Shown here one piece after another: positions 2,742 through 20,557 of a DNA stretch of 64,000 nt. The first letter of the stretch is position 1, and every line of letters starts with the position of its first letter. The notes beneath the pieces are model-generated. The model made no database searches, was not told the origin of the DNA, and saw only the letters and a program-made list of their open reading frames with translations. The stretch comes from Moorella sp. Hama-1 (GTDB taxonomy: Bacteria; Bacillota; DSM-521; Neomoorellales; Neomoorellaceae), in contig NZ_AP024620.1 in the NCBI RefSeq assembly GCF_023734095.1, positions 1,484,501-1,548,500 of the forward strand, in the 5' to 3' direction. A program made the translations under genes and the position numbers.

Positions 2742-2778
2742 AATGGCGCCGGGATTATCTCCGGGCGCCATTTGCGTT
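2742..2778. terminator. Convergent intrinsic terminator
   Basis: AATGGCGCC and GGCGCCATT form a long GC-rich stem between the DUF3006 gene and the convergent MBL gene. A-rich and T-rich flanks on either side would let it work in both directions. It marks the 3' end of the catabolic operon on the minus strand. Confidence 0.75.
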
Positions 2779-3538
2779 ATTTTTTAATTGCCGGGAAGTG
2801 TTCCCGCTGGAATTTCTGAACCCCTGGATCATGGCCGGCCAGGATAAAATCGGCGTACTGGCGGATCTTAGCAAAGCTTTCGAAGTTGGCGCCAACGTCA
2901 GTCACTATACCCACCGGCCGGTCTTCATTAATATTTTCTACCAGGTTAACGACATCGCCGGAAACGCAGACCACACCCTCGGCTGTTTTTACCAGCACTG
3001 ACTGGTGGCCGGGCGTATGCCCGGGAGTCGGAATTAGTTTTACTCCCGGTACTACATCCGCGTAGCCGTTGACAAAGCGCCAGGCAAAGAAATCCACGCC
3101 CCGCTGATCGTAAAGGAAGCGGGTGTCATTATAGATCCATTCCTGGCTTTTCAATGGATGGAAGGCATACTCCCATTCCCGTTGTTGGATATAAAAAACG
3201 GCATTTTTAAAGATACGGTTATTTCCAACATGATCATAGTGTAAATGGGTGTTGATAACGATATCTACTTCTTCCGGGTCCCATCCGGTGGCCTTTTTTA
3301 AGGCAGCAACCATTGTTTCATCTTCCTGCTGCTGGCAGGGATCTACGTGCTCATTTACCCAGTCGCGATCATGGATGCCGGTGTCGACCACGATTTTCGC
3401 CTCTGCGCCGACAATGGCCGCCGCCCAGATGGGTATGGTGATCATTTTGCCGAAGTCCTTGGCATAGGTCAGGGTTGATTTGTCGACATAGAGTTCGCCC
3501 ATCTTCAGGGCGACAACTTGTAAAGGCTTGATACTCAT
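2777..3538 (-). CDS. MBL-fold hydrolase, lactonase-like (last gene of the catabolic operon)
   Basis: A 253-residue protein. The zinc-binding HLHYDHVGNN lies near 98, followed by GHTPGHQS, a Cys-Val-Ser-Gly-Asp stretch and a C-terminal AGHDP. These are the ligands of the metallo-beta-lactamase fold as used in AttM/AiiA-type lactonases and related hydrolases. It is clearly paralogous to the MBL protein at 10435-11160, which shares KIVVDTG, HLHYDH, GNN and SVLVKT. Its DNA is richer in GC than most of the operon. It starts 22 bp after the thiolase stop. A lactone or thioester hydrolase role in the pathway is inference. Confidence 0.82.
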   Translation of the reverse strand: MSIKPLQVVALKMGELYVDKSTLTYAKDFGKMITIPIWAAAIVGAEAKIVVDTGIHDRDWVNEHVDPCQQQEDETMVAALKKATGWDPEEVDIVINTHLHYDHVGNNRIFKNAVFYIQQREWEYAFHPLKSQEWIYNDTRFLYDQRGVDFFAWRFVNGYADVVPGVKLIPTPGHTPGHQSVLVKTAEGVVCVSGDVVNLVENINEDRPVGIVTDVGANFESFAKIRQYADFILAGHDPGVQKFQREHFPAIKK

Positions 3539-3560: not shown

Positions 3561-4745
3561 TTACATTAACTCATAAAGAACTGCTAATCCCTGTCCACCG
3601 CCAATACATAATGTCTCTAACCCGTAACGTACTCCTTTACGGACCATATCGTTCATCAATTTTACGGTTAAGATAGCCCCTGTAGCTCCGATGGGATGGC
3701 CAAAGGCAATAGCACCACCGTTAACATTTACTTTACTGATATCTAATTCTAGCTCCCGAATGCAGGCAATTGCTTGGGATGCGAAAGCTTCATTCAATTC
3801 AATAAGACCAATATCATCTAGTTTGATCCCTGTTCTTTTTAGGAGCTTCCGCACTGCCGGAATTGGGCCGATGCCCATAATCTCTGGCGGAACGCCTGCC
3901 ACGGCAGCCGAGACCAACCTAACAATAGGTTTTAAACCTAATTCTTTGGCTTTCTCTTCTGTCATCATGACAACGGCGGCTGCACCATCATTAATGCCAG
4001 AGGCATTACCAGCTGTAACAGTTCCATCTTTTTTAAAGGCTGGTCGTAATTTGGCAAGCTTTTCCAAAGTTGTATCTGGCCTGGGGTGCTCGTCAGTATC
4101 AAATACCCTTTCTTCGTTTTTGCCGCACTTGACTTTTATAGGTATGACCTCATCATTAAAAATACCAGACTTTAAGGCTAACGCAGCTTTTCTCTGACTC
4201 TCAAATGCAAAAGCATCCTGTTCTTCCCTGGTGATACCATGTTTTTCTGCTACATTCTCAGCGGTGATGCCCATATGGTTTCGGGTGAAGGGATCGGAAA
4301 GGGCTGTTATGAGTCCATCTTCTAATTCGCCATGACCCATTACATAGCCAAAACGTGACTTACGTAGATAAAAAGGCAAATTAGTCATGGATTCAGCTCC
4401 ACCGGCAACTACGATATCGGCAAAGCCCATAGCAATCTCCATGGCACCAAGCACAATTGCCTGCACTCCAGAGCTACAAAGCCGATTTATTGTCATTGCC
4501 GGAGACTCTACTGGTAAACCAGCCTTAATGGCCGCTACTCGGGCTAAAAAGGCATCTTCTGCTACTTGACCAACACATCCCATCACTACCTCATCAACTT
4601 GAGCAGGATCTATATTTGCTCTTTTAACCGCTTCTTTAATAACAATAGCACCTAATTCAGCAGCTTTAAAATCCTTCAAGGAGCCGTTAAATCTACCAAC
4701 TGCAGTTCTGGCGCCAGAGACAATAACAACACTTTTGAGATCCAT
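3561..4745 (-). CDS. Acetyl-CoA C-acyltransferase (thiolase)
   Basis: A 394-residue thiolase with an ATG after AAGGAGG. The nucleophilic Cys90 sits in NRLCSSG, the catalytic His in [14 protein letters not shown] and the second Cys in CIGGGQG. These are the three signatures of biosynthetic or degradative thiolases, which split 3-ketoacyl-CoA with CoA or run the reverse condensation. It follows the ABC permease genes and is the second thiolase of the operon; the other is at 14942-16123. Two thiolases suggest two successive cleavages of a longer or branched 3-ketoacyl chain, but that is inference. Confidence 0.93.
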
Positions 4746-4792: not shown

Positions 4793-5803
4793 TTACTGGC
4801 GGATACTAGGTTGCCTAGAATAGGCAAGTAAGATTAGTAATAGTACTATCCCGGTAATAACTTGTCTAACTCCTGGTCCCATTCCAATAGAGATTAAGAC
4901 ATTGGTCAATATCACAATTACGATTGCTCCTAAAACGGTACCAATATATGTTCCTTTACCACCAGATAGTTGTGTACCGCCAATTACCACAGCTGCAACC
5001 GATAACATGGTATAATTATCACCCATTTGCAATTGGGCCGTGCCAATAAAAGATAGAAGTAACAAGCCACTTATCATCCCCAATATACCCGAAAGTATAT
5101 AAGTGATGAAAATAATTGTACCAACCTTAATACCGCATAACCGTGCGGCATTACGATTGTTTCCTGTTAAAAACAGAGATTTGCCGTATTTGGTCCTCGC
5201 TAAAACCAATTCAATTATTATTAATACTATAATAGTAAGGATGAAAAGCCATCTTACTGGGCCTACAACTTTACCTCCCCCCAGGGTTAGAAGAAGAGAG
5301 GGGACGGAGCCTTGGGGCCGACCCTGGGTAATGGCAAGGCTAAATCCTCCGGCCACAGTCCCCATTGCTAATGTCATGACCAAGGGCGGTATCCCTACCC
5401 ACCATATGCCTATGCTATTAATGAGGCCAATGATGGCACCCATGATTATTAAGACTAGGATAGCGACGGGGATGTTGGCATTTAAGCCGTTTAGAATTCC
5501 GCATCCAATTAAGGCCCCAAGAGACATAACCTGGCCAATAGAGAGGTCAATGCCTTCCCCCCCCGAGATAATTACCAATGTTTGACCTGCGGCGGCGATG
5601 GCCAGGATACTTGCTATAGCTAAAATATTACCGACGTTATTAGCGTCAGCAAAACCAGGATTTAAGATTTGTCCTATGAGTAAGAGTATGATACTAATTA
5701 TAACTGGAGGTAAAAACAGCTTATACTCTTCATTAAAGCGAAAGGTATTTTGCTTTACTGCTGCCCCGACTAGAGTCTTGTTTTCAGTATCCAATAATAA
5801 CAC
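4793..5803 (-). CDS. Sugar-type ABC transporter permease (RbsC-like)
   Basis: A 336-residue membrane protein of the BPD_transp_2 family used by ribose, galactose and autoinducer-2 importers. It has eight or more hydrophobic segments, the signature [11 protein letters not shown] near 80, and [15 protein letters not shown] in the C-terminal half. It is the second of two different permease genes and lies 17 bp after the first, so the channel is probably a heterodimer. The ATPase and binding protein are upstream in the same operon. Confidence 0.9.
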
Positions 5804-5820
5804 CCCTTATGAACCAGTTT

Positions 5821-6774
5821 TCAGGCCGATTTTGATTGTCTTTTACGCCCGATTATAACGGCGACAAAGATACCAAGAACTACAATTAATCCCGAGACAA
5901 ATTGCTGGTAATAGGTTGGTATTCCCATGCCAAGGACTGTTGTCAACACTAATCCTAAAAACAGGGTGCCAAAGATTGCGCCCGAAATACTACCAATACC
6001 ACCCATTAGGGAAATCCCGCCAATAACACAAGCCGCTACGGCATTCAAGGTCATTGGTAATCCTACTCTAGCATCCCCGGCACCAATATTACCTGTTAAA
6101 GCAATGGCAGCTATGCTGGCTGCTAATCCGGCAAAAAGATAGGTGGCAAACTGTACTTTTACTACAGAGATGCCGGAGAAATAAGCCTTCCTGATATCAT
6201 TACCAATAGCATACAAATAGGTACCAGATGGAGACAAATCCCAGATTAACCATATCAGGTATATCACTAAAATGAAGAAGATACTATTGGGGATGATACT
6301 CCATGAGCTAGAAAGATAAAAATCAACAAGGCTTTCTGGTGCCGAACCACCAGGTATCGGTAAGATCGTTAGTGCAATCCCTCCAGCAATATAGGAGGTA
6401 GCAAAGGTAACTAGTAACGGACTTATTCTTAAAATAGAGATTAAAAAACCATTTAAAGCACCTATAACTAACCCGCTTAAGATAACTATAGTTAGAATGG
6501 AGATTATAGGAAAATTTTTCAAAGATAAGGTTGCTAAAATAACATTAGCCATTGATAGAGTAGCACCGATAGAGATATCAATACCGCCACCTAGTAAAAC
6601 AACAGCTTCACCAATTGCTAAAATTATTAGTGGTGTAATTGACTGTAAAAACCCGGCAAAAGAGGAAAGCGTTAAAAAGCCTTCAGTAATAAACCCATTT
6701 AGTATGAAGAAGACAATAAATAATATTAAGGACGGTAAAGAACTCCATCGGAGTACTTTTTTAATAAGCGACAT
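5821..6774 (-). CDS. Sugar-type ABC transporter permease (RbsC-like)
   Basis: A 317-residue BPD_transp_2 permease with GGGIDISIGATLS near 62 and CVIGGISLMGGIGS in the C-terminal half. About nine hydrophobic segments are visible and the C-terminus is basic (GRKRQSK). It starts 4 bp after the ATPase stop, which implies translational coupling. It is only moderately similar to the other permease of this operon and pairs with it. Confidence 0.9.
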   Translation of the reverse strand: MSLIKKVLRWSSLPSLILFIVFFILNGFITEGFLTLSSFAGFLQSITPLIILAIGEAVVLLGGGIDISIGATLSMANVILATLSLKNFPIISILTIVILSGLVIGALNGFLISILRISPLLVTFATSYIAGGIALTILPIPGGSAPESLVDFYLSSSWSIIPNSIFFILVIYLIWLIWDLSPSGTYLYAIGNDIRKAYFSGISVVKVQFATYLFAGLAASIAAIALTGNIGAGDARVGLPMTLNAVAACVIGGISLMGGIGSISGAIFGTLFLGLVLTTVLGMGIPTYYQQFVSGLIVVLGIFVAVIIGRKRQSKSA

Positions 6775-6778
6775 GCAG

Positions 6779-8266
6779 TTAGGCTCCTTTCATTAATGAG
6801 GAAGAAATGATATTTTGTACAGTTATATCAGAACCGGTAAGGGTCTTTACAATTGAACCTTCATACATAATGATGATGCGGCAATTAGGTATGATTTTAC
6901 TTATATCAACTAATTCCTCATCATCACTAGAATTCATTATAACCACAGACCCCGATTCTACTAGTTTTTTAAGGATGTGATGGACTTCATGACGGGCATG
7001 GACATCTACCCCTTTATTTGGGTCGTCGGCTAGTAATATCTTTGGTTTGCTACTAATCCATCTTCCAAATACAACCTTTTGCTGGTTCCCGCCACTAAGG
7101 CTTTTGATAGGTTGGTTTATGCTATGAAGTTTAATACTTTGGTTTTTAATAATTTCAGCATAATTAGCAGGACCACCGTTTAGGACTATATTGCATACTG
7201 CATCGAGATTTTCGCGAATTGATCTTTCGGAAAAAGTACCTTCATTTTCCCGATCCCCTGACAAAAAGCCAATGCTTAGTTTTACTGCTTCAGACGGAGA
7301 TTTTATAGATACTTCTTTACCCTCTATTTCAAGCTGGACGTGGCCATTAAGACCAAAAATGCTGCGGATAAATTCACGTTGGCCCTGGCCTTGTAAACCA
7401 GAGACTCCAATAAATTCACCTGCCCGAGCTTCAAAATCGATGGCGCTTCCGAAAGAAGGAAGATGGAAATTCTTAAGAGCAAGGACAGTTTTAGCTTTAT
7501 TAAATTTATCAATCCCTGAGGCTTCAACTTGAGGATTATAATTAAATTCTTTATCACTCATTTTTAGTAATAACTCGTCTTTTTTTATCTCCTTGAGGTT
7601 GTAAGTTCCTACAGTTACCCCGTTTTTCATGACAGTAACAGTTTCACATACTGAATAGATTTCTGATATACGATGCGAGATAAAAATTATGGATGCGCCT
7701 ACTTGGCTTAATTCGAGTAAGATATCCTTTACAAGGGCAAAATCTTGACTGAAAAGGGCCGAGGTTACTTCATCAACAATTAATATTTTAGGCTGCTGGA
7801 TTAAAGCCTTCGCAAATTCAATTAAATATTGTTGATTGGCAGGGAGATCGCCAATCCTTTTTTCCTTGATATCTAAAAGACTTACTTTATTTAATATATC
7901 ATAGGCCTTCGCCTTAATTTCCTTATGATCTTCAAATATCTTGTAACGAGTCGGCAACATGCTCAGCATCAAATTTTTTTCGATAGATAGGTTAGAAGCC
8001 AAGCTTAATTCCTGAGAAGTAACCACAATACCCAGTTTTTTGGAGTAAGAAGGTGAGCTAATTTCAATAGTTTTGCTGTCTAATTTTATCTCGCCATGAT
8101 CTTTTTTAACAATTCCAGCTAAAATCTTCGCCAACGTACTTTTACCAGAACCATTACCACCCAAAAGCGCCCTAATTTCCCCCGGCTTTATGCAAATAGT
8201 AGCATCTTCTAAAGCCTTTACAGCACCAAAGGACTTTTTTATATTATTACACTCTAAAATCGGCAT
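6779..8266 (-). CDS. Sugar-type ABC transporter ATPase, duplicated domain (RbsA-like)
   Basis: A 495-residue ATPase with two nucleotide-binding halves, as in RbsA/MglA. The first half has a normal Walker A, GGNGSGKST, near 36, and a Walker B-like ILIVDEVTSAL. The second half has a degenerate Walker A region (GLQGQGQREF) but a good signature, LSGGNQQKVVFGRW, and LLADDPNKGVD. This asymmetry is normal for the family. It energises the two permeases that follow it. A perfect 15-bp hairpin separates it from the upstream binding-protein gene. Confidence 0.93.
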   Translation of the reverse strand: MPILECNNIKKSFGAVKALEDATICIKPGEIRALLGGNGSGKSTLAKILAGIVKKDHGEIKLDSKTIEISSPSYSKKLGIVVTSQELSLASNLSIEKNLMLSMLPTRYKIFEDHKEIKAKAYDILNKVSLLDIKEKRIGDLPANQQYLIEFAKALIQQPKILIVDEVTSALFSQDFALVKDILLELSQVGASIIFISHRISEIYSVCETVTVMKNGVTVGTYNLKEIKKDELLLKMSDKEFNYNPQVEASGIDKFNKAKTVLALKNFHLPSFGSAIDFEARAGEFIGVSGLQGQGQREFIRSIFGLNGHVQLEIEGKEVSIKSPSEAVKLSIGFLSGDRENEGTFSERSIRENLDAVCNIVLNGGPANYAEIIKNQSIKLHSINQPIKSLSGGNQQKVVFGRWISSKPKILLADDPNKGVDVHARHEVHHILKKLVESGSVVIMNSSDDEELVDISKIIPNCRIIIMYEGSIVKTLTGSDITVQNIISSSLMKGA

Positions 8267-8297: not shown

Positions 8298-8330
8298 GAC
8301 TTGTGCTGGTGAAAATCACCAGCACAAGTC
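8298..8330. promoter_or_regulatory. Perfect 15-bp intercistronic hairpin
   Basis: GACTTGTGCTGGTGA at 8298-8312 and its exact complement at 8316-8330 are separated by AAA. In the direction of the operon (minus strand) no T-run follows. It therefore looks like a 3'-stabilising or partial-termination hairpin and not a full terminator. Its position just after the binding-protein gene would give more binding protein than ATPase and permease, as in other binding-protein operons. Confidence 0.7.
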
Positions 8331-8339: not shown

Positions 8340-9518
8340 TTACTGTTTAGGCTGGAAAAAGGTCATAACCTGTTCTTCTGTTAACACACTATCAAGATCA
8401 GCAGTATCGGGTTGGCCTTCACCCAATTTTAACGCTTCTTCCAAACTAATAGCCTTAGTAAGTTTCGAAGTGCCTTGCATCCAAGGAGCATCTGGTTGGG
8501 CCTCTTTGGTTACAACATAAGCTGGTGGTACTGTAATAGTATTTTTTAAGTTCGGATCTAGTGGATTAGGTTCAAGGACATCGTCTTTAAATTTATAGCC
8601 TTGGAGTAATTTAACAGTTACTTCTACAGCATCGGCACCAATACCAGGATTATAAGTTACACCTATTGACTGTAGTTCAGGATGTTGAGCCCATTTTCTT
8701 AAGAAGCCAAAGGTATAATCACCGGTAAAAGGTGGCATTTTCTTGCCTGCAATTTCATAAGCACGCATTGTACCCTCAGCCATAACATCTTGCTCTAAAA
8801 CACCATCAATCTGAGGATAGGTCGATAGAAAGTTAGTCATAATCTCTTGTGATTTTGTCTCATTCCATCCTCCTGGTGCAGTACCTAGTATTTCAATACC
8901 AGGATAGTTCTTCAGAATCTTTTGGGCTTCATCAGTTCTAATTTTATCGCAGGAGTTACCAGCTAACCCTGAGATGTATACAATTTTACCTTTTCCTTTT
9001 AAAGTCTCGGCCAGCCATTTAACTTGAATTCCAAAGAAACTTCTGTGGTCACCTACAACTGAATAGGTTCCTTCGTATGCAGCAGGATCATCCACATTGA
9101 CAATTAAAATCCCTTTTTGTTTTGCTCTTTTTACAATCGGAGCCAAGGCTTCAGGAGAAACAGGGTTGATAATTAAGGCATCTACCCCTTTATCAATTAG
9201 ACTATTTAATTGTTGAATCTGTTGGGTAACATCATCATTGACATTCTGAACAATAAATTCAGAGACGATCCCTTGTTTCTTATATTTGTCAGCAACTTTT
9301 TGGGCTTGGTCAATAAACTGAGCGCGCCAGGTATTACCAAAATAACCATTTGCAAATCCGATAACAAACCCTTTATCCTTTTTTGGCTGGAAACCTTCTT
9401 GTTGATTTTGATTGTTGTTGCCCGCTTCTTTTTTACCAGAACCACATCCGACAACTATCGAACTTAACAAAGCGATCATCAGAAAGAACACTACCAGAGC
9501 AATCCTTTTTTGTTTCAT
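8340..9518 (-). CDS. Sugar-type ABC transporter substrate-binding lipoprotein
   Basis: A 392-residue periplasmic-binding-protein-4 type lipoprotein. The lipobox IVVGC puts the lipidated cysteine at residue 25, followed by an Asn/Gln-rich linker and the binding domain (KGFVIGFANGYFGNTWRAQF). Two ATGs lie close together: the one at 9524 directly abuts GGAGG, while the one at 9518 has a 7-nt spacer, so I choose 9518. The protein should capture the operon's substrate outside the membrane. The ligand cannot be read from sequence. Homologues of this family bind sugars, polyols and related ring compounds. Confidence 0.9.
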   Translation of the reverse strand: MKQKRIALVVFFLMIALLSSIVVGCGSGKKEAGNNNQNQQEGFQPKKDKGFVIGFANGYFGNTWRAQFIDQAQKVADKYKKQGIVSEFIVQNVNDDVTQQIQQLNSLIDKGVDALIINPVSPEALAPIVKRAKQKGILIVNVDDPAAYEGTYSVVGDHRSFFGIQVKWLAETLKGKGKIVYISGLAGNSCDKIRTDEAQKILKNYPGIEILGTAPGGWNETKSQEIMTNFLSTYPQIDGVLEQDVMAEGTMRAYEIAGKKMPPFTGDYTFGFLRKWAQHPELQSIGVTYNPGIGADAVEVTVKLLQGYKFKDDVLEPNPLDPNLKNTITVPPAYVVTKEAQPDAPWMQGTSKLTKAISLEEALKLGEGQPDTADLDSVLTEEQVMTFFQPKQ

Positions 9519-9675: not shown

Positions 9676-10416
9676 TCAATCGTAACTTAGAGCAACCGGT
9701 CTAATTGGGGACCCTGAACCATTCTTAATTTTTAGAGGTAAGGCCATGAAGAATATTTCCGCAGGCAATTGCTCCAAGTTTGCCAGACATTCCAATAAAT
9801 AGATGTCGTTTGATAATAGAAGTTCATGTATCCAGCAGAATTTTGATTCACAGTTAATACTGGCCGTACCACAGGCAATGGTATCAGATCCAAGGGCTTT
9901 AATTTTTTTTGCTAATAGATACTCGGCTACTGATTTATCAAGTCCGGGGGAGTTACCAGCGTATTTTTTCCAATCCCCTTTAGTGGTCCTATATTTCATC
10001 CAACCAAAATTCACCAAGACGATGTCGCCTTCTTTAATTTCTACATTAGTTACTTTTTCTGCTCTTTTTATGTCATCGAGAGTTGCGAACTCGCCTGCAG
10101 CTAAATTTAATTTAGAGAGGTCCAGGACTATACCATGACCGAGTAAAGCATTAAGAGGAAGAGTCTCCACTGTTTTTTCTTTTAGTTTAATATGAACATG
10201 ATAAGGGGCATCAACATGGGCTCCGGTATGTTCGGCCATAAAAACCGTCTGGCAGTAGTAGCCATCATGTTCATGGGTAACGGTAGGATTAACAACGAAT
10301 GGGGGATGGGTTGGAAAACGTGGCATATCGTTTTCTAGTAAAGGACTCAAGTCTATAAATTTAGCCTTGGAAAAGAGTGTATTTAACTCTTGAATATTGA
10401 CGTTCTCGCCAACCAT
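9676..10416 (-). CDS. Cyclase-family metal-dependent hydrolase
   Basis: A 246-residue member of the cyclase/kynurenine-formamidase family. The metal-binding motif HTGAHVDAPYH, near residue 60, matches the family pattern HxGTHxDxPxH except that Ala replaces Thr. An N-terminal DLSPLLENDMPRFP is also typical. Known members hydrolyse amides, lactones or cyclic diketones, some with manganese. In this operon it sits next to an MBL hydrolase, upstream of the transporter genes. Ring opening of a cyclic substrate is a reasonable guess, not a demonstrated role. Confidence 0.82.
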   Translation of the reverse strand: MVGENVNIQELNTLFSKAKFIDLSPLLENDMPRFPTHPPFVVNPTVTHEHDGYYCQTVFMAEHTGAHVDAPYHVHIKLKEKTVETLPLNALLGHGIVLDLSKLNLAAGEFATLDDIKRAEKVTNVEIKEGDIVLVNFGWMKYRTTKGDWKKYAGNSPGLDKSVAEYLLAKKIKALGSDTIACGTASINCESKFCWIHELLLSNDIYLLECLANLEQLPAEIFFMALPLKIKNGSGSPIRPVALSYD

Positions 10417-10434: not shown

Positions 10435-11160
10435 TTATACACCATAAGCTCTAGTTAAATCTAAATTAGGCTCATGCCCCGGTAATAAAATCACATCTCT
10501 TATTCTTTTTAACTTAGCCATTGTAGCCCATTGTTGTTGACCGCTATAGCAAATACCTGGTAGAATATCTTGCTCCCAATTTTCAAATGTGTAGACAGCA
10601 TCTCCTGGGTATAATACATTTCCGTCGGTTGTTTTAACTAGAACCGACTGGCTACCGGCGGTATGGCCAGGAGTAGATAGGACATATACTCCATCAACGA
10701 GCTCAAAATCCAACCCGTTGGGTATCAGATCATAGTTAAGAGGACGATCAAAGTCTTCACGGTAGTAGGCTATATCTCCAGGGGTAATTGGGACATAAGC
10801 CTTTTCTAACTCTTCCCTTCTAACGATAATGCGGGCGTTAGGAAACAAGTGGTTGTTACCGGCATGATCATAATGGAGGTGGGTACTGATTACATAATTA
10901 ATGCCTTCTACAGTAACACCGTGGAGTTTAAGCTGTTCAACAACTGTTTGCTTGTCGCTGTGTTTATGTTTCCAGTTCCTAGCACCAGGAGAATTAAGGT
11001 CATTAACGCCGGTGTCGACAACTATTTTGGCTTGAGGATGATCAATAAATATCCCAAAAACTGGTATGTCTATTATTTCCCCCATACCCTTTCCAGCTAA
11101 TAAAACCGACGTATCGGTAATATTGGTACCAAGGTCTAAAATATAAACTTTAGCATACAT
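10435..11160 (-). CDS. MBL-fold hydrolase, lactonase-like
   Basis: A 241-residue metallo-beta-lactamase fold protein with HLHYDHAGNN near residue 94, STPGHTAGSQS, GDAVY and a terminal PGHEP. The ligand set is complete, so it is probably an active two-metal hydrolase of the AttM type. It is paralogous to the MBL protein at 2777-3538. It is encoded 18 bp upstream of the cyclase-family gene, and the two could act in sequence on a ring or lactone. The substrate is unknown. Confidence 0.82.
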   Translation of the reverse strand: MYAKVYILDLGTNITDTSVLLAGKGMGEIIDIPVFGIFIDHPQAKIVVDTGVNDLNSPGARNWKHKHSDKQTVVEQLKLHGVTVEGINYVISTHLHYDHAGNNHLFPNARIIVRREELEKAYVPITPGDIAYYREDFDRPLNYDLIPNGLDFELVDGVYVLSTPGHTAGSQSVLVKTTDGNVLYPGDAVYTFENWEQDILPGICYSGQQQWATMAKLKRIRDVILLPGHEPNLDLTRAYGV

Positions 11161-11235
11161 TTTTATCTCTCCTGAGGAAAAATTATACTAATTATTTCCA
11201 TTTTTATCTTTTCTTCTTTGCTCTTTTTCTTATTA

Positions 11236-11625
11236 TCATTTCGTACTTTGAACTAACTCGACTAAGATACCACCTGTACTACGGGGCCGAATAAAGTTTA
11301 CAATAAAATTACCTGCTCCTTTTACTGGGGTTTCCTCCAAAAACTGGGCCCCACTCTTTTCTAGTTCAGTTTTGGTTTTATGAATATCTTCCACTTTGTA
11401 AGCAATGTGGTGTATTCCTCCCCTTCCCTTATTGTATTCGGAGAGCTTTCCACCACTAGGGATAATAAATTCTAACGGTGGGGAACCATTCCCTTTCATG
11501 AAAATGCATAGAGACTGATACTCAGGGACATAGCCTCGATAGTCTTCCTGGAGGCCAAACATTTTTATAAAATTGGCAGCAATCTCCTCACTGGGTATAA
11601 CTACACCTATATGATGAATTTGCAT
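11236..11625 (-). CDS. VOC-family protein, methylmalonyl-CoA-epimerase-like
   Basis: A 129-residue vicinal-oxygen-chelate protein. The N-terminal IHHIGVVIPSEE, the central GGIHHIAYKVEDI and the C-terminal GILVELVQ provide the His and Glu metal ligands seen in methylmalonyl-CoA epimerase. No mutase or carboxylase genes are nearby, so a methylmalonyl-CoA role is uncertain. An epimerase or isomerase acting on another acyl-CoA or a dicarbonyl is equally possible. Confidence 0.78.
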   Translation of the reverse strand: MQIHHIGVVIPSEEIAANFIKMFGLQEDYRGYVPEYQSLCIFMKGNGSPPLEFIIPSGGKLSEYNKGRGGIHHIAYKVEDIHKTKTELEKSGAQFLEETPVKGAGNFIVNFIRPRSTGGILVELVQSTK

Positions 11626-11667
11626 CTTTTCACATCCTTCGCCGTCACGATCGCTTTTATTATCATT

Positions 11668-12516
11668 TTAATTATACTTATAAAATCCTTGTCCACTTTT
11701 ACGACCCAGTAACTTACCCTCTACCATTTTCCTTAATAATGGACATGGTCGGTATTTGGGATCTCCAAATTTATCATACATCTCTTTCATTACCGATAAG
11801 ACGGTATCCAAGCCGGCAAAATCGGCTAATTCCAAGGGACCCATGGGCAAATTTGCTCCTAGTTTCATGGCTGTATCTATATCTTTCGGTTCATTGCCTT
11901 CCATGACAAGATACATAGCCTCATTCCACATGGGAACTAAAAGTCTGTTCACCAAAAATGCTGGAGTATCGGGTGCTTTTACCGGTACTTTACCGAGGCC
12001 TTTTGATAAGTTCATGGCTTTTTCAAAAGTATCTTCGGAAGTCCTTAATCCGGGTATGACTTCAATTAACTTCATTACTGGTGCAGGAATAAAAAAGTGC
12101 ATACCAATTACTTTTTCAGGACGGTTGGTGGCCCCCCCCAGAAGGGTAATGGAAATCGTAGAAGTATTCGAGGCAAATATCGTTTCCGGCTTACATATTT
12201 TATCTAGTTTGACGAAAGTTTCTATTTTAATGTTGGCATTTTCAGTTACCGCTTCAATAACGACGTCTGCCTCAGCGCCTACTTCGATACTAGGAACGGC
12301 TCTGATACGGCCAATTATTTCCTTTAATTTGCTTTCCTCAAGCTTTCCTTTTTCAACTTTTCGCTTTAAAAAATACTCGATTTTATTTAATCCTCTTTCT
12401 GCCAATTCCAAGTTTACATCTGTTAATAGCGTCTCATAACCAGCCTCAGCACATGTTTGTGCGATTCCAGCTCCCATAAGACCTGCACCAACTACCATAA
12501 TCTTTTCTTTTGGCAT
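11668..12516 (-). CDS. 3-hydroxyacyl-CoA (3-hydroxybutyryl-CoA) dehydrogenase
   Basis: A 282-residue NAD-dependent dehydrogenase. The N-terminal nucleotide fold has GAGLMGAGIA, and the catalytic His is in GMHFFIPAPVMKLIEV. The C-terminal domain includes NRLLVPMWNEA and ends GRKSGQGFYKYN. The frame opens at a GTG at 12525, but AAGGAAAGG is better spaced for the ATG at 12516 (MPKEK), which I use. It oxidises 3-hydroxyacyl-CoA to 3-ketoacyl-CoA, feeding the thiolases. No enoyl-CoA hydratase or acyl-CoA dehydrogenase accompanies it, so the substrate probably enters the pathway already hydroxylated. Confidence 0.92.
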   Translation of the reverse strand: MPKEKIMVVGAGLMGAGIAQTCAEAGYETLLTDVNLELAERGLNKIEYFLKRKVEKGKLEESKLKEIIGRIRAVPSIEVGAEADVVIEAVTENANIKIETFVKLDKICKPETIFASNTSTISITLLGGATNRPEKVIGMHFFIPAPVMKLIEVIPGLRTSEDTFEKAMNLSKGLGKVPVKAPDTPAFLVNRLLVPMWNEAMYLVMEGNEPKDIDTAMKLGANLPMGPLELADFAGLDTVLSVMKEMYDKFGDPKYRPCPLLRKMVEGKLLGRKSGQGFYKYN

Positions 12517-12536
12517 TACTATCACCTTTCCTTTTA

Positions 12537-13277
12537 CTAAAGAATAAATCCTCCTCCGACATTGATAACTTCTCCGGTTATATATCCTGCCTCTTCAGAA
12601 GCAAGAAAGGCGACAAGGTTAGCAACATCTTCCGGTTTTCCGACTCGTCCCATAGGAATTTTGCTAATCATAATATCCCAGACTTTTTCGGGCACACCTC
12701 TCGTCATTTCGGTATCTATAAAGCCAGGACATATAGCATTAACAGTAATACCCTTTTTGGCGAGTTCTTTAGCCGCCGTTTTGGTAAGGCCGACCACGCC
12801 AGCTTTGGAAGCGGCATAATTGGCCTGCCCGATATTGCCCAGCCAGCTTGCCGAGGCGATATTGATAATTCTCCCCCTTTCCCGTTCCCGCATTAATTGA
12901 GCGGCAAGTTGGGTACAATAAAAAGTACCGGTTAAGTTTACTGCAATAACCTGGTCCCATTGCTCCATCGTCATTTTGTGCAGCATAGCATCGCGATTAA
13001 TACCGGCATTGTTCACCAGGCAATAAAGCGGGCCTAAATTATCTTCCACGAATTTAAACATCTCTTCTACTTCACTACGATTAGCAATGTTACATTGATA
13101 GGCTGCCGCCTCCCGGTTTTGCGTCTTAATTTCTGCTACAACTGCATTGGCGTTCTCTATCGCCACATCTGCTACTAGCACCTTGGAACCCTCAGTTGCT
13201 AGCTTTACGGCAATACCCTTTCCAATGCCCCGGCCACCACCGGTTACAATAGTAATTTTACCTGCTAACTTTTTCAT
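12537..13277 (-). CDS. Short-chain dehydrogenase/reductase (FabG-like)
   Basis: A 246-residue SDR with TGGGRGIGKG near residue 11, an NNAG motif, the catalytic Ser in IASASW and YAASKAG, and a C-terminal VINVGGG. It is close to 3-ketoacyl-ACP reductase and acetoacetyl-CoA reductase. In this operon it could reduce a cyclic ketone, an enolic ring or a 3-ketoacyl-CoA, or run as a dehydrogenase. It starts 32 bp downstream of the CoA-transferase stop. Confidence 0.9.
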   Translation of the reverse strand: MKKLAGKITIVTGGGRGIGKGIAVKLATEGSKVLVADVAIENANAVVAEIKTQNREAAAYQCNIANRSEVEEMFKFVEDNLGPLYCLVNNAGINRDAMLHKMTMEQWDQVIAVNLTGTFYCTQLAAQLMRERERGRIINIASASWLGNIGQANYAASKAGVVGLTKTAAKELAKKGITVNAICPGFIDTEMTRGVPEKVWDIMISKIPMGRVGKPEDVANLVAFLASEEAGYITGEVINVGGGFIL

Positions 13278-13309: not shown

Positions 13310-14896
13310 TTAAGATTTTTTAGCTAAAATTATCTCCTTCAATCCATATTTACCCTTATTATAAAGAGTTGATTTAGTTACCTGTAAAGGTTCAGCAATA
13401 CGGGGACGGAATTCCATTTGCGCTAATATATCTTTTTCCAGATCAATGCCCGGGGCAATTTCCACCAATACTGGCCCGTCTTCATGCAATTCGAAGATAG
13501 CCCTTTCGGTAACAAAATGTACTTTTTGGTGTCTTTGACGTGCTAAATAGCCACTGAAAGAAATCTGTTGAACCTGATTAACCAGTTTTTTAATTTTCCC
13601 TTCTTGCAGGATTTTCACTTTGCCGTCTGTAAAATCTACCTTTAATCCATCAGCGGTAAAGGTGGAACAGAAAACTACATGTTTAGCACATTGGGTAATG
13701 TCGATAAATCCTCCTGCTCCTGCAGCTCGCGTGCCCATTTTAGTGGCATTAATATTGCCTTCGGCATCCATTTCTCCTGCACCCATAAAGGTGAAGTCCG
13801 CGCCTGCCCCATTATAAAAATCAAATTGATCATCATGCCGGATTAAAGCATCAGTATTTTTGGCAATACCAAAGTCTATGCCTCCAGCAGGAATACCACC
13901 ATAGACCCCAGATTCGACGGTGATTGTAATATCATCAAGGATACCCTCTTCAGCTGCAATGGGACCAACAACATCATTGGGGATGCCAGTACCAAGATTA
14001 ATAATGGCATCTGGTTCGAGTTCCATTAAAGCCCGTCGCCCGATCACTTTTCGGATATTTAGTGGATACGGTTCCATAATAGAAACAGGAACTCGCAAAT
14101 CGCCACTATAGGCGGGGTCAAAAACCCAACTTGACGTCTGGCGGTGATCTTCGTCTGGGTTTTGGCAAACAACGATAGCATCAACAAAAACTCCTGGTAC
14201 AATTACTTTTTTGGGATGAAGAGAATGGGCTTGAGCTACGCGTTTAACCTGACAAATTACTTTACCGCCAAAACGTTTAGTAGCTAATACTGCTGGCAAA
14301 ACCTCGAGTAACATACCTTCTTCTTCGGTAGTAATATTGCCGTTTTCATCAGCTGTGGTACCACGAATGATTACAAAATCAATAGGGGGTATTTTATAAA
14401 GCAAATACTCCTCATTATTAATGGTAATAACTTCAATTAAATCTTTTAGCGGCTTAGTCCTTTCGTTCATTTTACCGCCTTCAATGCGTGGATCAACAAA
14501 AGTACCTAGACCAACTTTTGAAATTTTACCAGGTTGACCACAAGCTAAACTTCGATAAATTTGAGCCAGTTGCCCCTGAGGCATACAATAAGCTTCTACT
14601 TTATTGCTACTAATCATTTCCATCCATCGCGGTTGTAAACCCCAATGAGAACCTATAATTCGCGTTACAAGTCCTTCATGAGCATAGTGCTGGATACCTC
14701 GATCACGATCACTCTGGCCGGCTGAATGAATTAAGGTTAAATTACATGGGTGCCCGGTTTCAAGAAAACTTTTTTCAATAGCCTTAAGAATCTCTTCGCA
14801 GGCGCTAACAAGAGTCATTCCTACCGAAGCGATGGTAGCTCCATCGAAAATTAGTTGGGCTACTTCCTTTCCACTAATAAATTTTGGACACTTCAT
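13310..14896 (-). CDS. Acyl-CoA:carboxylate CoA-transferase (fused alpha-beta)
   Basis: A 528-residue family-I CoA-transferase in which the two subunit domains are fused, as in propionate CoA-transferase. The catalytic glutamate is most likely the one in TVESGVYGGIPAGG near residue 333. A glycine-rich FMGAGEMDAEGN follows in the second domain. It activates a free acid by taking CoA from acetyl-CoA or another acyl-CoA, which saves ATP. The operon also encodes an ATP-dependent ligase, so either two acids or two conditions are served. Confidence 0.9.
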   Translation of the reverse strand: MKCPKFISGKEVAQLIFDGATIASVGMTLVSACEEILKAIEKSFLETGHPCNLTLIHSAGQSDRDRGIQHYAHEGLVTRIIGSHWGLQPRWMEMISSNKVEAYCMPQGQLAQIYRSLACGQPGKISKVGLGTFVDPRIEGGKMNERTKPLKDLIEVITINNEEYLLYKIPPIDFVIIRGTTADENGNITTEEEGMLLEVLPAVLATKRFGGKVICQVKRVAQAHSLHPKKVIVPGVFVDAIVVCQNPDEDHRQTSSWVFDPAYSGDLRVPVSIMEPYPLNIRKVIGRRALMELEPDAIINLGTGIPNDVVGPIAAEEGILDDITITVESGVYGGIPAGGIDFGIAKNTDALIRHDDQFDFYNGAGADFTFMGAGEMDAEGNINATKMGTRAAGAGGFIDITQCAKHVVFCSTFTADGLKVDFTDGKVKILQEGKIKKLVNQVQQISFSGYLARQRHQKVHFVTERAIFELHEDGPVLVEIAPGIDLEKDILAQMEFRPRIAEPLQVTKSTLYNKGKYGLKEIILAKKS

Positions 14897-14941
14897 ATCC
14901 TCACCTTTCCTTTCTCAAAAAATTACTTACGTGGTAATAAA

Positions 14942-16123
14942 TTAAGCTATATTTTCAAAGACGGTAGCAATACCTTGACCGCCACCAATGCACATGGTAA
15001 CGACACCATATTTGGTCTGGCGGCGTACCATTTCTTTTTGCAGCTTAACCGTCAAGATTACTCCGGTGGCACCGATAGGATGACCCAGGGCAATGGCGCC
15101 ACCGTTGACGTTCACCTTTTCTTCGGGAAGCCCTAGGATACGCATAACGGCAATGGATTGCGAGGCAAAGGCTTCATTTAGTTCAAAGAGATCAATGTCG
15201 TCCAGCCTCAAACCTGCCTTCTCTACAGCCTTTTTGGTTGCCGGGGCCGGACCGATACCCATAACATCAGGATCAACGCCGGCTACTGCCTGGCTACGAA
15301 TTAGCAATAAGGGCTTAATACCAAGTTCGTTGGCTTTTTCAGCCGACATTACAACCACGGCTCCGGCGCCATCGTTGATACCAGAGGAATTACCCGCAGT
15401 AACAGTGCCACCTTCTCTGAAGGCAGGTTTTAACTTTGCCAGTTGTTCCATGGTGAGGCCAAATCGGGGATGTTCATCCTGGGCAAACATTTTGGTTTCC
15501 CGTTTGCCGGCAGGGACTTCTATTGGCAGGATTTCCTCAACAAATTTGCCGGCCTTAATGGCGGCTTCAGCCTTGCGCTGGCTATTCAGGGCAAAGGCAT
15601 CCTGCTCTTCCCTGGAAATCCTGTAACGCTCGGCAATATTTTCTGCTGTTACTCCGTTTGGATACGGTCCCAAAGGCCAGGTTAAAATAGTAAGCAGGCC
15701 GTCCTCAAACTGGCCATGACCGAACCCGTAACCATAACGGGCTTTACGTACATAATATGGTAGCTGGTCCATATTCTCGGTACCACAGGCGACGACAATT
15801 TCTGCATTGCCGCTCTGGATTTCCTGGACGGCACTATTGATCGCCTGTAATCCAGAGCCGCATTGGCGATTGACGGAGAAAGCCGTTGTTTCAAGGGGTA
15901 AGCCTGCCTTTAAAGAACACATCCTGGCAATAAAACCGCTTTCGGCAACCTGACCGACGTTACCGACAATAACCTCGTCAATCTGGTTCCCCTCTAAACC
16001 AGCCCGGCGGACGGCTTCCTTAATTACCATGGCGCCCAGGTCGGTCTGATGGATATCCTTTAGACTACCGCCCTTAGTTCCTACTGCTGTGCGAACGCAA
16101 CTGACTATAACTATATCTTGCAT
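14942..16123 (-). CDS. Acetyl-CoA C-acyltransferase (thiolase)
   Basis: A 393-residue thiolase. The frame opens at 16225, but GGAGGG precedes the ATG at 16123 (MQDIVIVS), which matches the family N-terminus. The nucleophilic Cys88 is in NRQCGSG, the His in [14 protein letters not shown] and the second Cys in CIGGGQG. It is clearly different from the thiolase at 3561-4745 and its DNA is richer in GC. Together they can release two C2 units from a longer ketoacyl-CoA. Confidence 0.93.
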   Translation of the reverse strand: MQDIVIVSCVRTAVGTKGGSLKDIHQTDLGAMVIKEAVRRAGLEGNQIDEVIVGNVGQVAESGFIARMCSLKAGLPLETTAFSVNRQCGSGLQAINSAVQEIQSGNAEIVVACGTENMDQLPYYVRKARYGYGFGHGQFEDGLLTILTWPLGPYPNGVTAENIAERYRISREEQDAFALNSQRKAEAAIKAGKFVEEILPIEVPAGKRETKMFAQDEHPRFGLTMEQLAKLKPAFREGGTVTAGNSSGINDGAGAVVVMSAEKANELGIKPLLLIRSQAVAGVDPDVMGIGPAPATKKAVEKAGLRLDDIDLFELNEAFASQSIAVMRILGLPEEKVNVNGGAIALGHPIGATGVILTVKLQKEMVRRQTKYGVVTMCIGGGQGIATVFENIA

Positions 16124-16148
16124 CAACGAACCCTCCTGTTTTTTATAA

Positions 16149-17789
16149 TTATACTGATTGATATTTCTCTCGTAAAAATTTTTTATCGATTTTTCCGTTG
16201 ACATTTTTTGGCAGTTCAGAAACAAAGTTTACGTACTTAGGAACTTTATATTTGGCGAGACGTTGCTTTACCCATTCTTGAATATCCGTTTCGGAAATAT
16301 TGCTCCCATTAGGTATAACTATTGCTCTTGCTACTTCCCCATAAACAGGATCAGCGGCACCAATGACAGCAACTTCTTTTACTTGCGGATGGGAATAAAT
16401 AATGTTTTCTACCTCTAAAGTATATATCTTTTCTCCGCCTCGATTAATCATATCTTTAAGCCTGTCTAATATATAAACATATCCTTCAGCGTCTATTTTA
16501 GCTATATCACCCGTCTTAAACCAACCATCTTTAAAGGCTTGGGCAGTAGCAACCTCGTTATGCCAATATTTTTGAGCTACTACTGGCCCCCGAATACAAA
16601 GTTCCCCAATGCCTTTACCAGTAATATCCATTCCGTTTTCGTCTATAATTTTACAATCAACTACTGGGATTGGTAGACCACAGGAAACCATTTTGGATTT
16701 AATTACAATATCTGTAGGAAATATAGTTGCCGGGGAGCTTGTTTCGGTAAGACCATAAATGGTATGAAATTCTAAATTAGGCATCCATCTTTTTAATTTA
16801 ATTATCGTTTCTTCTGAGATAGGCCCTCCACCACAAGCAGCCTTCCGTAAAAATGGGAGTTTATAATAGTCACGTCCATAATCCATTAACATGATATATA
16901 CTGTAGGGGCAGCATGGAAAAACGTAATAGAATGCTTATCTAAAATGTCTAGGACTTTTTTTTCATTAAAATAGGGTAATAAATGGATAGTACCTCCGAT
17001 ATGCATAAACAATAAAAACAGGGCAGCTAAACCAGTTATATGAAAAATAGGTACAGCTATTAAGGTGCTATCCTCAGAAGATAGCTTTAAAGTTCGTTCA
17101 TAACTAATGATGCTTTGTAAGAGGTTAAAATGAGTGAGATAAGCTCCTTTTGGATGCCCTGTAGTTCCAGAGGTATACATAATAACAGCGCCATCTTCTC
17201 TAGCAATAGGAGGTGGATTGATTTTTGTATTTAAAAAAAGAGCGTGATAAGGTATATGAGAACTGTCGCTAGATTTATAAGAGGAACTATTTCGCGTAGG
17301 CGGGGTTATGACTATTTTTTCTATATAGGTATCTTTTATAATGGGATTAATATTGGGTATCCATTCAGGATTAGTTATTAAGATCTTAGCTTTAGAATCT
17401 GTAAGCATAAAGCTTAATTCAGTGGATTTTAATTTAGTACTTAATGGCAGAGCTATAGCTCCCAAATATATTGTTGCATAAAAACTGATGCAAAACTCGA
17501 TGCTATTTACCATTAGAAGGGCAACTACATCACCTTTTTTGATTTTACATTGGCTTGATAAACCACTAGCAAAATTTATAATCCGTTCTGCAAAGTTATA
17601 ATAACTTACGTATTCATTATTCACATATAAAGCAGGCTTGTTTGGATGTCTCAATACAGTCCGGGAAAAATCCTCCCATAAGTTATCATAGATTAAATTG
17701 TAATACCGATGTTCTATCCCTTCCTGACTTTGAATTATTATATCTTTTTCTGCCTCCTCAAACCATTTTCCCATGCCGCTAACAGCCAT
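16149..17789 (-). CDS. AMP-forming acyl-CoA synthetase
   Basis: A 546-residue member of the adenylate-forming superfamily. The P-loop motif is MYTSGTTGHPKGA, followed by YGLTETSSP, a GWFKTGD segment, DRLKDMINRGGEKIY and the C-terminal catalytic lysine in NVNGKIDKK. It activates a carboxylic acid to acyl-CoA via an acyl-adenylate. The frame begins at a TTG at 17810, but the ATG at 17789 has AGGGGGT at good spacing. It is the first enzyme gene after the regulator. The acid is not predictable. Confidence 0.92.
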   Translation of the reverse strand: MAVSGMGKWFEEAEKDIIIQSQEGIEHRYYNLIYDNLWEDFSRTVLRHPNKPALYVNNEYVSYYNFAERIINFASGLSSQCKIKKGDVVALLMVNSIEFCISFYATIYLGAIALPLSTKLKSTELSFMLTDSKAKILITNPEWIPNINPIIKDTYIEKIVITPPTRNSSSYKSSDSSHIPYHALFLNTKINPPPIAREDGAVIMYTSGTTGHPKGAYLTHFNLLQSIISYERTLKLSSEDSTLIAVPIFHITGLAALFLLFMHIGGTIHLLPYFNEKKVLDILDKHSITFFHAAPTVYIMLMDYGRDYYKLPFLRKAACGGGPISEETIIKLKRWMPNLEFHTIYGLTETSSPATIFPTDIVIKSKMVSCGLPIPVVDCKIIDENGMDITGKGIGELCIRGPVVAQKYWHNEVATAQAFKDGWFKTGDIAKIDAEGYVYILDRLKDMINRGGEKIYTLEVENIIYSHPQVKEVAVIGAADPVYGEVARAIVIPNGSNISETDIQEWVKQRLAKYKVPKYVNFVSELPKNVNGKIDKKFLREKYQSV

Positions 17790-17823
17790 TGCGTTTACCC
17801 CCTGATACAAACCTAAGTTAACT

Positions 17824-18822
17824 TTATATTAAACTTACGGTACTTTTTCTTACAATTAACTTAGGATTAAATATAATACGTTTGTAAGCGCCCTTATACC
17901 CTCTCATTCTTTCTAGCAGAACCTCTGCCGCTGCTTGGCCCAATTCGAGATGAGGTTGATGAATTGTAGTTAGCTTAACTATGGGCGCAATATTATTGTT
18001 ATCATAACCAACGATACTAAAATCTTCGGGAACGCGTTTACCATATTCATTAAGCGCTTCTATTAAACCTATTGCCATGAGATCGTTTCCACAAAAAACT
18101 GCTGTTGCGTCTTTGTATTGGTTTAATAATAACTTTCCAAAATTATATCCTGAATCCCATTGCAAATTACCATATACTATTCTTTCTTTATCAATATTGA
18201 CATTATATTGTTTGAATACATCAAGAAAACCATTTAATCGATCATAGGTGGCAGAAGAGTTTTTATGCCCTGCTAAAATTGCAATGTTACGATGCCCTAA
18301 ATCTAGTAAATGTTTTCCAGCCAAATATCCACCTGTATAGTTATCTACAGATATAAAATCAGTTTCAATTGAAGGCAAATAACGATTTAAAAGCACAACA
18401 GGACAATTTATCGTTTTTAATTGCTTAAGAAGGGTTTCAGTTTCCATTGCAGTAATCATGATGATACCTGCAAAGCCATATACATCTGCTGTCCTGATAT
18501 ATGCCTCTTCTTTATCAGGATCATAGTCACTATCGCAAACTACTACCATATAACCTTCTTTATTCAAGAATTCCTTTATCGTTCTAGTTAACTCTGCGTA
18601 GAAGGGATTTCGGATATCGCCAATTATCAAAGCAACAATATCTATTTTTCCTTTTACTAACCCTCTTGCAATATGGCTAGGCCGATAGCCTAAACGGTCA
18701 ATAACCTTTTGTACTTCTTCCCGGGTTTTAGGATCAACACTTGGATGATTGGTAAGAACACGAGATACAGTTGAAGATGAAACTCCGCTTTTTCGAGCAA
18801 TGTCTTTAATAGTAATTCGCAT
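17824..18822 (-). CDS. LacI-family transcriptional regulator (first gene of the catabolic operon)
   Basis: A 332-residue regulator with an N-terminal helix-turn-helix (TIKDIARKSGVSSSTVSRVL) followed by a sugar-binding-protein-like effector domain. The effector domain resembles the binding proteins of ribose-type importers, which fits the transporter encoded downstream. Its own promoter carries a LacI-type palindrome just after the -10 box, so it probably represses itself and the fourteen genes behind it until an inducer is present. Confidence 0.92.
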   Translation of the reverse strand: MRITIKDIARKSGVSSSTVSRVLTNHPSVDPKTREEVQKVIDRLGYRPSHIARGLVKGKIDIVALIIGDIRNPFYAELTRTIKEFLNKEGYMVVVCDSDYDPDKEEAYIRTADVYGFAGIIMITAMETETLLKQLKTINCPVVLLNRYLPSIETDFISVDNYTGGYLAGKHLLDLGHRNIAILAGHKNSSATYDRLNGFLDVFKQYNVNIDKERIVYGNLQWDSGYNFGKLLLNQYKDATAVFCGNDLMAIGLIEALNEYGKRVPEDFSIVGYDNNNIAPIVKLTTIHQPHLELGQAAAEVLLERMRGYKGAYKRIIFNPKLIVRKSTVSLI

Positions 18823-18841
18823 TTTATTCTTCCCATCGTTG

Positions 18842-18855
18842 TGGTAGCGTTTCCA
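18842..18855. promoter_or_regulatory. Putative LacI-type operator
   Basis: TGGTAGCGTTTCCA is an imperfect palindrome with the central CG typical of LacI/CcpA-family operators. It lies between the -10 box and the start of the regulator gene, where a bound repressor would block transcription. A cre-like role for CcpA cannot be excluded. Confidence 0.65.
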
Positions 18856-18861
18856 AGTATA

Positions 18862-18890
18862 ATTTTAGCTTCATAATCTCTATTTGTCAA
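18862..18890 (-). promoter_or_regulatory. Near-consensus sigma-A promoter of the catabolic operon
   Basis: On the minus strand TTGACA (18890-18885) and TAAAAT (18867-18862) are separated by 17 bp. The -35 box is only 12 bp from the end of the neighbouring insertion sequence. Confidence 0.8.
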
Positions 18891-18901: not shown

Positions 18902-18916
18902 ATTGAGCTTTTTGCG
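18902..18916 (+). repeat. Left terminal inverted repeat of the IS
   Basis: ATTGAGCTTTTTGCG, exact complement of 20543-20557. The next bases on the two sides are only loosely similar. Confidence 0.75.
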
Positions 18917-19118
18917 CTGCACCCGTTTATGCCTGTTTAAGGCAGCATTTTAGCTCCAAGAACGCTTATCACTATGATTAATACGCAAGCATCTAAGCCG
19001 TTCCGGAAGCATTTTCTCCATAAATTGCCTGGAATACCACTAACAGGGGGGGTAAAAATGGGTAGACTATCACCCTACTGTTCGTGACCCAATTTAATAT
19101 TTGCGGTTGGTGGCTGCT

Positions 19119-20334
19119 TTACGCCGCCACCAAGCTTCGCATCTTCTCGGCCTGGTTCTCCTTGATGCGCCCCAGCGCCATCGCTAGCATGACGCATAGT
19201 GCCAGCCCGCACCGCAGCTTCATTTTGGCCATGCCGCGAATGGTATGCAGCTCGAAGCCAAAGGACACATCTAAGCGGCTGTTTACTCGTTCCACCGCCG
19301 TCCGCTTGTCGTACTCTCTCTTCCATTTGTAGCTGGTACGGTCAATCGGTGTAAAGACCCGCCGGTCAACCGCCAGTGGAATCCGGACCCCTTGCACTAC
19401 CGGACACTGGGCCTGACCTTTACAGTTAATGCCCATTTGCTTGGCCGGGCAAAGCTTCTTTAATGTGTTACGGTCTTTTTCAAAGCCGCCGTTTATCATC
19501 TCCCGCTGTTTCCCTGTTTGGGGACATACGCAGTAGACGGTTCCTTTATAGTCGTAAACTACATTCTCTCTGCCTTCCAATAATCGCGTTGGGTCGGGAT
19601 CCTTCCACATGTTGCGAATATCGATTACCGGCTTGATATGGTATTTATCCCAGCACCTGATGATGAGCTTCGTATCGTCATAGCCGCGGTCCGCTGTGAG
19701 CGTTTCAGCTACTTCAAGGGTTTCCGGCTGTCTTTCCTGCATCTGATCCAGCAAGGCATGCCCCTGGGTTATATCTGCAGCCGATGCTTTCGTTACCTTA
19801 AACGCTACCGGCAGTTCAGCGGTATTCTTTTTTCCCGTAGTCGGCATCCGTGTCCCGCCGCCCATCCGCAGCCTCGTTCCGATTTTTACCCTTGGCCAAG
19901 GAGGAAATGGCTTTGCTGTCCATGGCCAGGTGTCGACCAAAGTCAGGGAGCTCTTTCCTAATCTGCTGCACCAGGTTATCAAATAGACCATCCACCATGG
20001 AAGCGTAGCCGAATAGCGTTTTCATAAACCGGGTGTAGACCCACGCGGGAGGCACTTCTCCCTCAAACCCACACATCTCCCGTAGTTGAGCGTTACGTTT
20101 GAGTTCTCGGCGCAAGCTCTCGATGGAGGGATGTTGAAAGACGATGCCGGCTAAAAGGGAGTTCCATACGGCTCTGACCGGATAGTCATTACGCCCTTTA
20201 TTACGTTTTCGTTCCAGAGCCTGCATCAGGTCTTCATCCGGCATGTGTTCTAATACCAGCCGGAGTCGCTCCAAGTCCCCTAACTTTTCAATTTCGTTCC
20301 ACCCAAACAGTTTCAGTTGTGGTATAATAGCCAT
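19119..20334 (-). pseudogene. DDE transposase, internally deleted and frameshifted
   Basis: The 5' part reads from an ATG at 20334 (MAIIPQLK, after AAGGAGGAG) to a TGA at 19816. It contains the first catalytic Asp in LAMDSKAI (residue 139) and ends DADYGKKEYR. The rest continues in another frame from AELPVAFKVTKA, with the second Asp in LTADRGYDD and the Glu in KREYDKRTAVERVN. Related IS4/IS5/IS1182-type transposases have about 25-30 residues between these two blocks (a WGVK/LWEKV/WFGYK region), so the defect is a small internal deletion that also shifts the frame. A functional transposase cannot be made unless the shift is bypassed. Confidence 0.85.
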
Positions 20335-20542
20335 GAAGGTGCTCCTCCTTCTTTGTGTGTTTTTTTGCTGGGCTAAGCTAAAGATTCTACACAAAGATGA
20401 GGAGTACCTTTTTTTCGCTGGGGTGAATTTCTTTGGGAGGCTTATTTTTTGTCCCTCAAAACTCCAATCTACCTGTTTATTTTGGGGTAAAGTCTTTTTT
20501 CCCCTCTTTTGCATCCGTTGCCCTACCTGGTTTCGCGGTCAT

Positions 20543-20557
20543 CGCAAAAAGCTCAAT
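20543..20557 (-). repeat. Right terminal inverted repeat of the IS
   Basis: CGCAAAAAGCTCAAT, exact complement of 18902-18916. Confidence 0.75.

Follow-up and report, generated by a model that had tools for sequence, protein, structure and literature searches.

The fifteen minus-strand genes that begin with a gene for a LacI-family regulator are very probably headed by an autoregulated promoter, in which the regulator acts on an operator at the expected transcription start (Table 1). We hypothesize that this autoregulatory promoter-operator, release by a ligand, readthrough of most or all of the fifteen genes and roadblocks inside the genes form one system, and as a whole we consider this explanation likely. 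We infer that a repressor dimer at about +1 to +14 would block open-complex formation or promoter escape, that a ligand linked to the encoded acyl-CoA pathway would release the repressor, and that transcription would then continue past the regulator gene and cover the operon wholly or for the most part, up to the terminator-like site. Further, mostly weaker operators inside the first genes would probably bind the same repressor, thereby roadblocking leaked transcription. The window referred to below is the whole 64-kb stretch of DNA that was analysed.

Table 1. Positions of the promoter elements, operator-like sites, genes and neighbouring features in the window
Feature	Position	Strand	Remarks
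-35 hexamer TTGACA	18885..18890	-	Identical in congener G005
-10 hexamer TAAAAT	18862..18867	-	TAATAT in G005, spacing unchanged
Main operator TGGAAACGCTACCA	18842..18855	-	About +1 to +14; TGGAACCGTTACCA in G005, TGGGACCGGTTTCA in G017
Operator-like site TGGAAACGATCTCA, regulator +731	18078..18091	-	Intragenic; identical in G005, third codon positions all kept
Operator-like site TGGGACCGTATCCA, thiolase +451	15659..15672	-	Intragenic; identical in G005
Weak operator-like site TGGTGTCGTTACCA, thiolase +1115	14995..15008	-	Intragenic; TGGTATCGTTACCA in G005
Operator-like site TGGAACCGTATCCA, CoA-transferase +820	14063..14076	-	Intragenic; not conserved in G005
LacI-family regulator, 332 aa, first gene	17824..18822	-	Pfam LacI and Peripla_BP_3; nearest solved relatives CcpA, PurR
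AMP-forming acyl-CoA ligase	16149..17789	-	
Acetyl-CoA acyltransferase (BktB-like thiolase)	14942..16123	-	
CoA-transferase (FadX-like)	13310..14896	-	
Short-chain dehydrogenase (SDR, FabG-like)	12537..13277	-	
3-Hydroxybutyryl-CoA dehydrogenase-like	11668..12525	-	
VOC/epimerase-like protein	11236..11625	-	
Metallo-beta-lactamase-fold (MBL), lactonase-like hydrolase	10435..11160	-	
Cyclase/arylformamidase-like hydrolase	9676..10416	-	
Ribose-type (CUT2) ABC substrate-binding protein	8340..9518	-	
CUT2 ABC ATPase and two permeases	4793..8266	-	
Second thiolase	3561..4745	-	
Second lactonase-like MBL hydrolase, last gene	2777..3538	-	95% identical in G005
Intrinsic-terminator-like site past the last gene	2702..2719	-	
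Strong 15-bp perfect hairpin between binding-protein and ATPase genes	8298..8330	-	No T-run on operon strand
Defective IS1182-family element, transposase split into two ORFs	18905..20554	-	Right end 14 bp upstream of the -35 box

Promoter and operator of the regulator gene

The -35 and -10 hexamers together match the sigma-70-type consensus at 11 of 12 bases across a 17-nt spacer (18884-18868, minus strand), and six matches of this quality occur in the 64 kb, the operon promoter among them. Six nucleotides, TATACT, separate the -10 box from the main operator, which is followed after 19 nt by the ATG (18822) of the regulator gene. Transcription is expected to start about 7 nt past the -10 box, and the placing of the operator at about +1 to +14 is based on this. 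The first-pass annotation had described the promoter with a palindrome just past the -10 box, and this was exact in sequence and coordinates, its TGGTAGCGTTTCCA being TGGAAACGCTACCA on the opposite strand. The operator is an imperfect palindrome with a CG centre, in which five of seven pairs match. Because the window contains 189 CG-centred 14-mers with at least 5/7 pairs, the palindrome by itself proves nothing, and its rarity was dropped as proof. The stricter LacI-type pattern TGGNANCGNTNCCA has a single match in the window and three in the 3.32-Mb genome as a whole; one of the other two lies in a trpF-like gene and one within open frames resembling coding DNA. A scan of the genome for further copies of the palindrome, proposed earlier as a check, found the exact operator to be unique, with no second copy at one mismatch or fewer, as would suit a site restricted to its own operon. 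The looser matches inspected, at 1607238 (a trpF-like gene), 633038 (an unnamed conserved region) and 2243223 (a cbiM-like gene), lie within coding-like open frames and not at promoters, and on these a regulon outside the operon was rejected.

The promoter-operator is lifted above chance by its architecture being conserved in the congener G005. Searches of the phylum, the class and relatives found close orthologs of the regulator in two other genomes only: G005, from the same genus, at 72% identity, and G017, from the same family, at 57%. The promoter region of G005 reads TTGACA-17-TAATAT-TATCA-TGGAACCGTTACCA. Of the 26 positions in the -35 box (6/6), the -10 box (5/6) and the operator (12/14), 23 are the same as in the window, against 3 of 17 in the spacer, which on sequence grounds is a clean footprint. 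Upstream of the ortholog in G017, the operator-like site TGGGACCGGTTTCA is present, a TTGACA box is absent, and a sigma-H-like AGGA...GAATA sequence seems to replace the promoter. Sigma-H-like boxes of the AGGAATT...TCGAATA type were also observed upstream of several LacI-family genes (loci L014 and L022 of G017, L015 of G002, and L004, L005 and L008). The strict form of this pattern has seven matches in the genome of the window and none with the reversed control, and five of the seven precede identical transposase-like ORFs.

The regulator belongs to the LacI/GalR family, with PF00356 (64.0 bits) and PF13377 (114.9 bits) both above the Pfam cut-offs, and falls below the NCBIfam cut-offs of the RbsR, PurR, GalR and CytR equivalogs, the best being RbsR (NF047341, 267.6 of 382 bits). 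Its DNA-binding domain is CcpA/PurR-like and its hinge ends in R-G-L; in PurR, the leucine of the hinge enters the central CG step. The candidate operator has the form known from LacI/GalR regulators, a CG-centred even palindrome near a promoter, conserved in G005 and weaker in G017. The earlier claim that the first gene encodes a LacI-family protein with a LacI-type operator just past the -10 box of its own promoter is borne out by the Pfam domains and by conservation at the orthologous locus of the congener. One study of 1303 LacI regulators counted 72% as autoregulated and 1173 as having a CG-centred motif (PMC4052901). The conserved operator, the LacI-family protein of the CcpA/PurR-like kind, the lack of a CcpA above the cut-off and this frequency of autoregulation make control of its own promoter the best reading, which we hold with high confidence.

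Operator-like sites inside the first genes

A weight matrix built from the three promoter operators only (window, G005 and G017) gave four matches above 13.4 bits in the window, where chance predicts 0.6 over the full 64 kb, and all four lie within 14063-18855. They are the main operator and one site each in the genes for the regulator, the thiolase and the CoA-transferase. A Poisson estimate made separately used a pattern partly picked after the sites were seen and is not relied on. All seven matches above the same threshold in the 20-kb locus of G005 fall in the corresponding stretch of the operon. Strong intragenic sites number three in the window and five in G005, and none equally strong occurs in the other ten operon genes. 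Their over-representation is a statistical observation: by summed score, the first five genes exceed all 1500 synonymous-codon shuffles, which preserve protein and codon usage, in the window and in G005 alike, and the true matrix ranks above all 720 half-site rearrangements. With leave-one-out matrices the result was P = 0.001 for the window and 0 of 2000 shuffles for G005. No excess of sites was found in the last ten operon genes, 12 other genes of the window or the coding genes of G017. The third codon positions of the regulator +731 and thiolase +451 sites are unchanged between the window and G005, compared with gene-wide agreement of 43% and 58%, respectively. The statistics are good and rest on two related genomes, for which the tests are not independent because G005 has two of the three window sites as well.

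With the same matrix, a second strong site was also found in G005 and in G017. In G005, TGGTAACGCTTCCA lies just before the thiolase gene in the ligase-thiolase gap, and in G017 the perfect palindrome TGGTACCGGTACCA occupies the lacI-thiolase gap, likewise just before the thiolase gene. In a more distant relative in G002, two identical perfect palindromes flank the regulator gene, one before and one after it. No operator site is present in the ligase-thiolase gap of the window.

From the sequence we lean slightly towards regarding the intragenic sites as genuine binding sites. By analogy with related repressors it is quite possible, if less probable than binding itself, that they act as roadblocks. 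We put forward equally tentatively a system in which a dimeric repressor would use the promoter operator together with a conserved array of operators in the coding sequence of the first 5 kb as serial roadblocks, the operator codons being selected on top of the protein code. The regulator aligns to residues 4-330 of the 360 of LacI and then ends, so that the C-terminal tetramerisation helix found past residue 330 is missing. Long-range loops are less likely than roadblocks or simple titration because the regulator ends where the tetramer tail of LacI begins; DNA looping, which would be unlikely without another contact, was set aside as the main mechanism.

The strongest competing explanation, doubtful though far from negligible, is that a single operator exists and that the intragenic sites arise merely from protein sequence and codon usage. 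Some of the sites coincide with conserved protein motifs (GND in the regulator, GPYPNG in the thiolase), and such sites are missing from the coding genes of G017. However, shuffles that keep both protein and codon usage fail to reproduce them, and in G005 a site of the identical class is also found in the non-coding ligase-thiolase gap.

Extent and content of the transcription unit

The fifteen genes end at the terminator-like hairpin 2719-2702, before which no recognisable minus-strand terminator was found within them. Intergenic gaps do not exceed 75 nt, save for 157 nt ahead of the ABC binding-protein gene. The hairpin 8298-8330 cannot be recognised as a terminator of the operon, its T-run being on the opposite strand, and it possibly protects the mRNA end of the binding-protein gene. 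Neither a riboswitch nor another known RNA was detected in the operon at gathering scores, and a literature search on the operon found no relevant paper. The idea that a single operator could switch all fifteen genes holds in so far as no terminator precedes the final hairpin, but the second operators of the relatives and the intragenic operator-like sites modify it: the main operator at the shared promoter is probably helped by further sites in the first genes. The accompanying statement of the first-pass annotation that there is no other obvious promoter is fair because internal promoter matches are at chance level. However, given a 10/12 match (16176-16148) just before the thiolase gene and the 157-nt gap, internal starts may occur.

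These two places are where a division into several transcription units would put its internal, operator-independent promoters, an arrangement that we regard as rather unlikely. The 10/12 match lies exactly where G005 and G017 hold their second operator, the gap before the binding-protein gene is the largest of the operon, and the HBDH-to-second-thiolase cassette is missing from the G005 operon. Against such a division, promoter-like matches number 41 where 44.0 are expected, the remaining gaps are short, and the genes are not broken up by any hairpin with a T-run on the operon strand.

The operon of G005 consists of lacI, ligase, thiolase, CoA-transferase and SDR genes followed by an MFS transporter and the last MBL gene, and that of G017 of lacI, thiolase, CoA-transferase and SDR genes, with aconitase X next in order and a Liv-type ABC transporter at some distance beyond. 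The transporters and accessory enzymes downstream of this common core vary (window 2777-12525; L021:9156-11325; L022:6638-13941), comprising a CUT2 ABC transporter, an MFS transporter, or a Liv-type ABC transporter with aconitase X. The last MBL is 95% identical to its G005 counterpart, compared with about 72% for the neighbouring comEC-like and regulator genes, which suggests exchange or strong constraint. The shared core suggests a beta-oxidation-like breakdown of a short hydroxy- or oxo-acid. In G010, a transporter 38-40% identical to the ABC cassette stands beside oxidoreductase genes and a ROK-like regulator, a context that leaves the substrate of the operon unfixed.

Other sources of control and known systems

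It is very improbable that CcpA or another LacI paralog uses the operator as a catabolite-responsive element, with global instead of local control. The 14-mer of the main operator does fit the loose cre pattern TGNAANCGNTNNCA, eight further LacI-type regulators are encoded in the genome, and the main operator is fairly similar to the paralog site TGGAAACGTTTACA, so that cross-talk is possible. However, the nine LacI-type proteins all score below the CcpA cut-off of 442.35 bits (264.6 at best; 194 for the operon regulator against the ccpA equivalog), which makes a CcpA site unlikely, and CcpA control was rejected on this ground. Moreover, the candidate operators of the paralogs differ (TGGAAACGTTTACA, TACAAACGATTGCA and GGAAAACGTTTTCC), and the site, singular in its genome, accompanies the regulator gene in three genomes. 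Two LacI-family copies in genome G000 (2403093-2404028 and 2927703-2928638) score identically in the search and have operators (TACAAACGATTGCA) and upstream regions that are nearly the same, and the LacI-family gene match at 1441703-1442713 of the same genome contains an in-frame TAG, perhaps merely a natural stop.

An IS1182-family element stands between the regulator promoter and a DUF302 gene; in another copy, at genome positions 397915-399643, the frame spans about 500 codons, and a solo end fragment lies at 1704559. The joined flanks of the element (...TTAAGTTCTTATT and AATGAAACATCCTATTGACA) align with the uninterrupted site of G005 (...TTAAGTTTTTATTAAAAAACATCTTGACA), and therefore the promoter hexamers and the operator are native, only the upstream sequence having been displaced. 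That the element provides an outward or hybrid promoter bypassing LacI control is hardly credible, for although it ends so near the -35 box and its transposase frames point toward the operon, both hexamers lie outside it and match the element-free promoter of G005, and the operator would still block at +1.

Autoregulation with intragenic operators would have relatives among well-studied repressors. The lac operon of E. coli has O1 at the transcription start and O2 inside lacZ, and it resembles the present operon in having a main operator at the start and an operator inside a structural gene; here, in contrast, the regulator is in the operon and is without the tetramer tail needed for LacI looping, and the sites are up to 4.8 kb off. 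E. coli PurR acts as an intragenic roadblock at purB, a likeness that extends to a dimeric, sequence-related LacI-family repressor and an operator inside a coding gene, whereas here several sites are spread across several genes of one operon. In Bacillus, CcpA sites downstream of the transcription start block elongation (PMC3463425), and the family, the CG-centred operators and the sites within genes are common to both systems, elongation block having been shown for CcpA. Unlike in that case, no protein here is above the CcpA cut-off, the sites are confined to one operon, and control by a co-repressor or HPr is not suggested. With the autoregulated local LacI regulators of the RegPrecise type, the system shares a regulator-first operon and a CG-centred even palindrome near the start codon (Ravcheev 2014, PMC4052901). 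Autoregulation is typical of local regulators, nearly all of which in that study serve sugar or nucleoside use, whereas the operon described here is of the acyl-CoA ligase/thiolase/CoA-transferase/lactonase-like kind, and its site lies just 20-33 nt ahead of the start codon.

The promoter part of the system is of an ordinary, well-known kind, and the sites buried in the genes are its less usual feature and a modest surprise. The operon adds a LacI-type regulator that apparently governs an acyl-CoA/lactone-type catabolic operon instead of sugar use. It also offers a testable case of several operators within coding sequence, a layout that is omitted by promoter-only regulon predictions.
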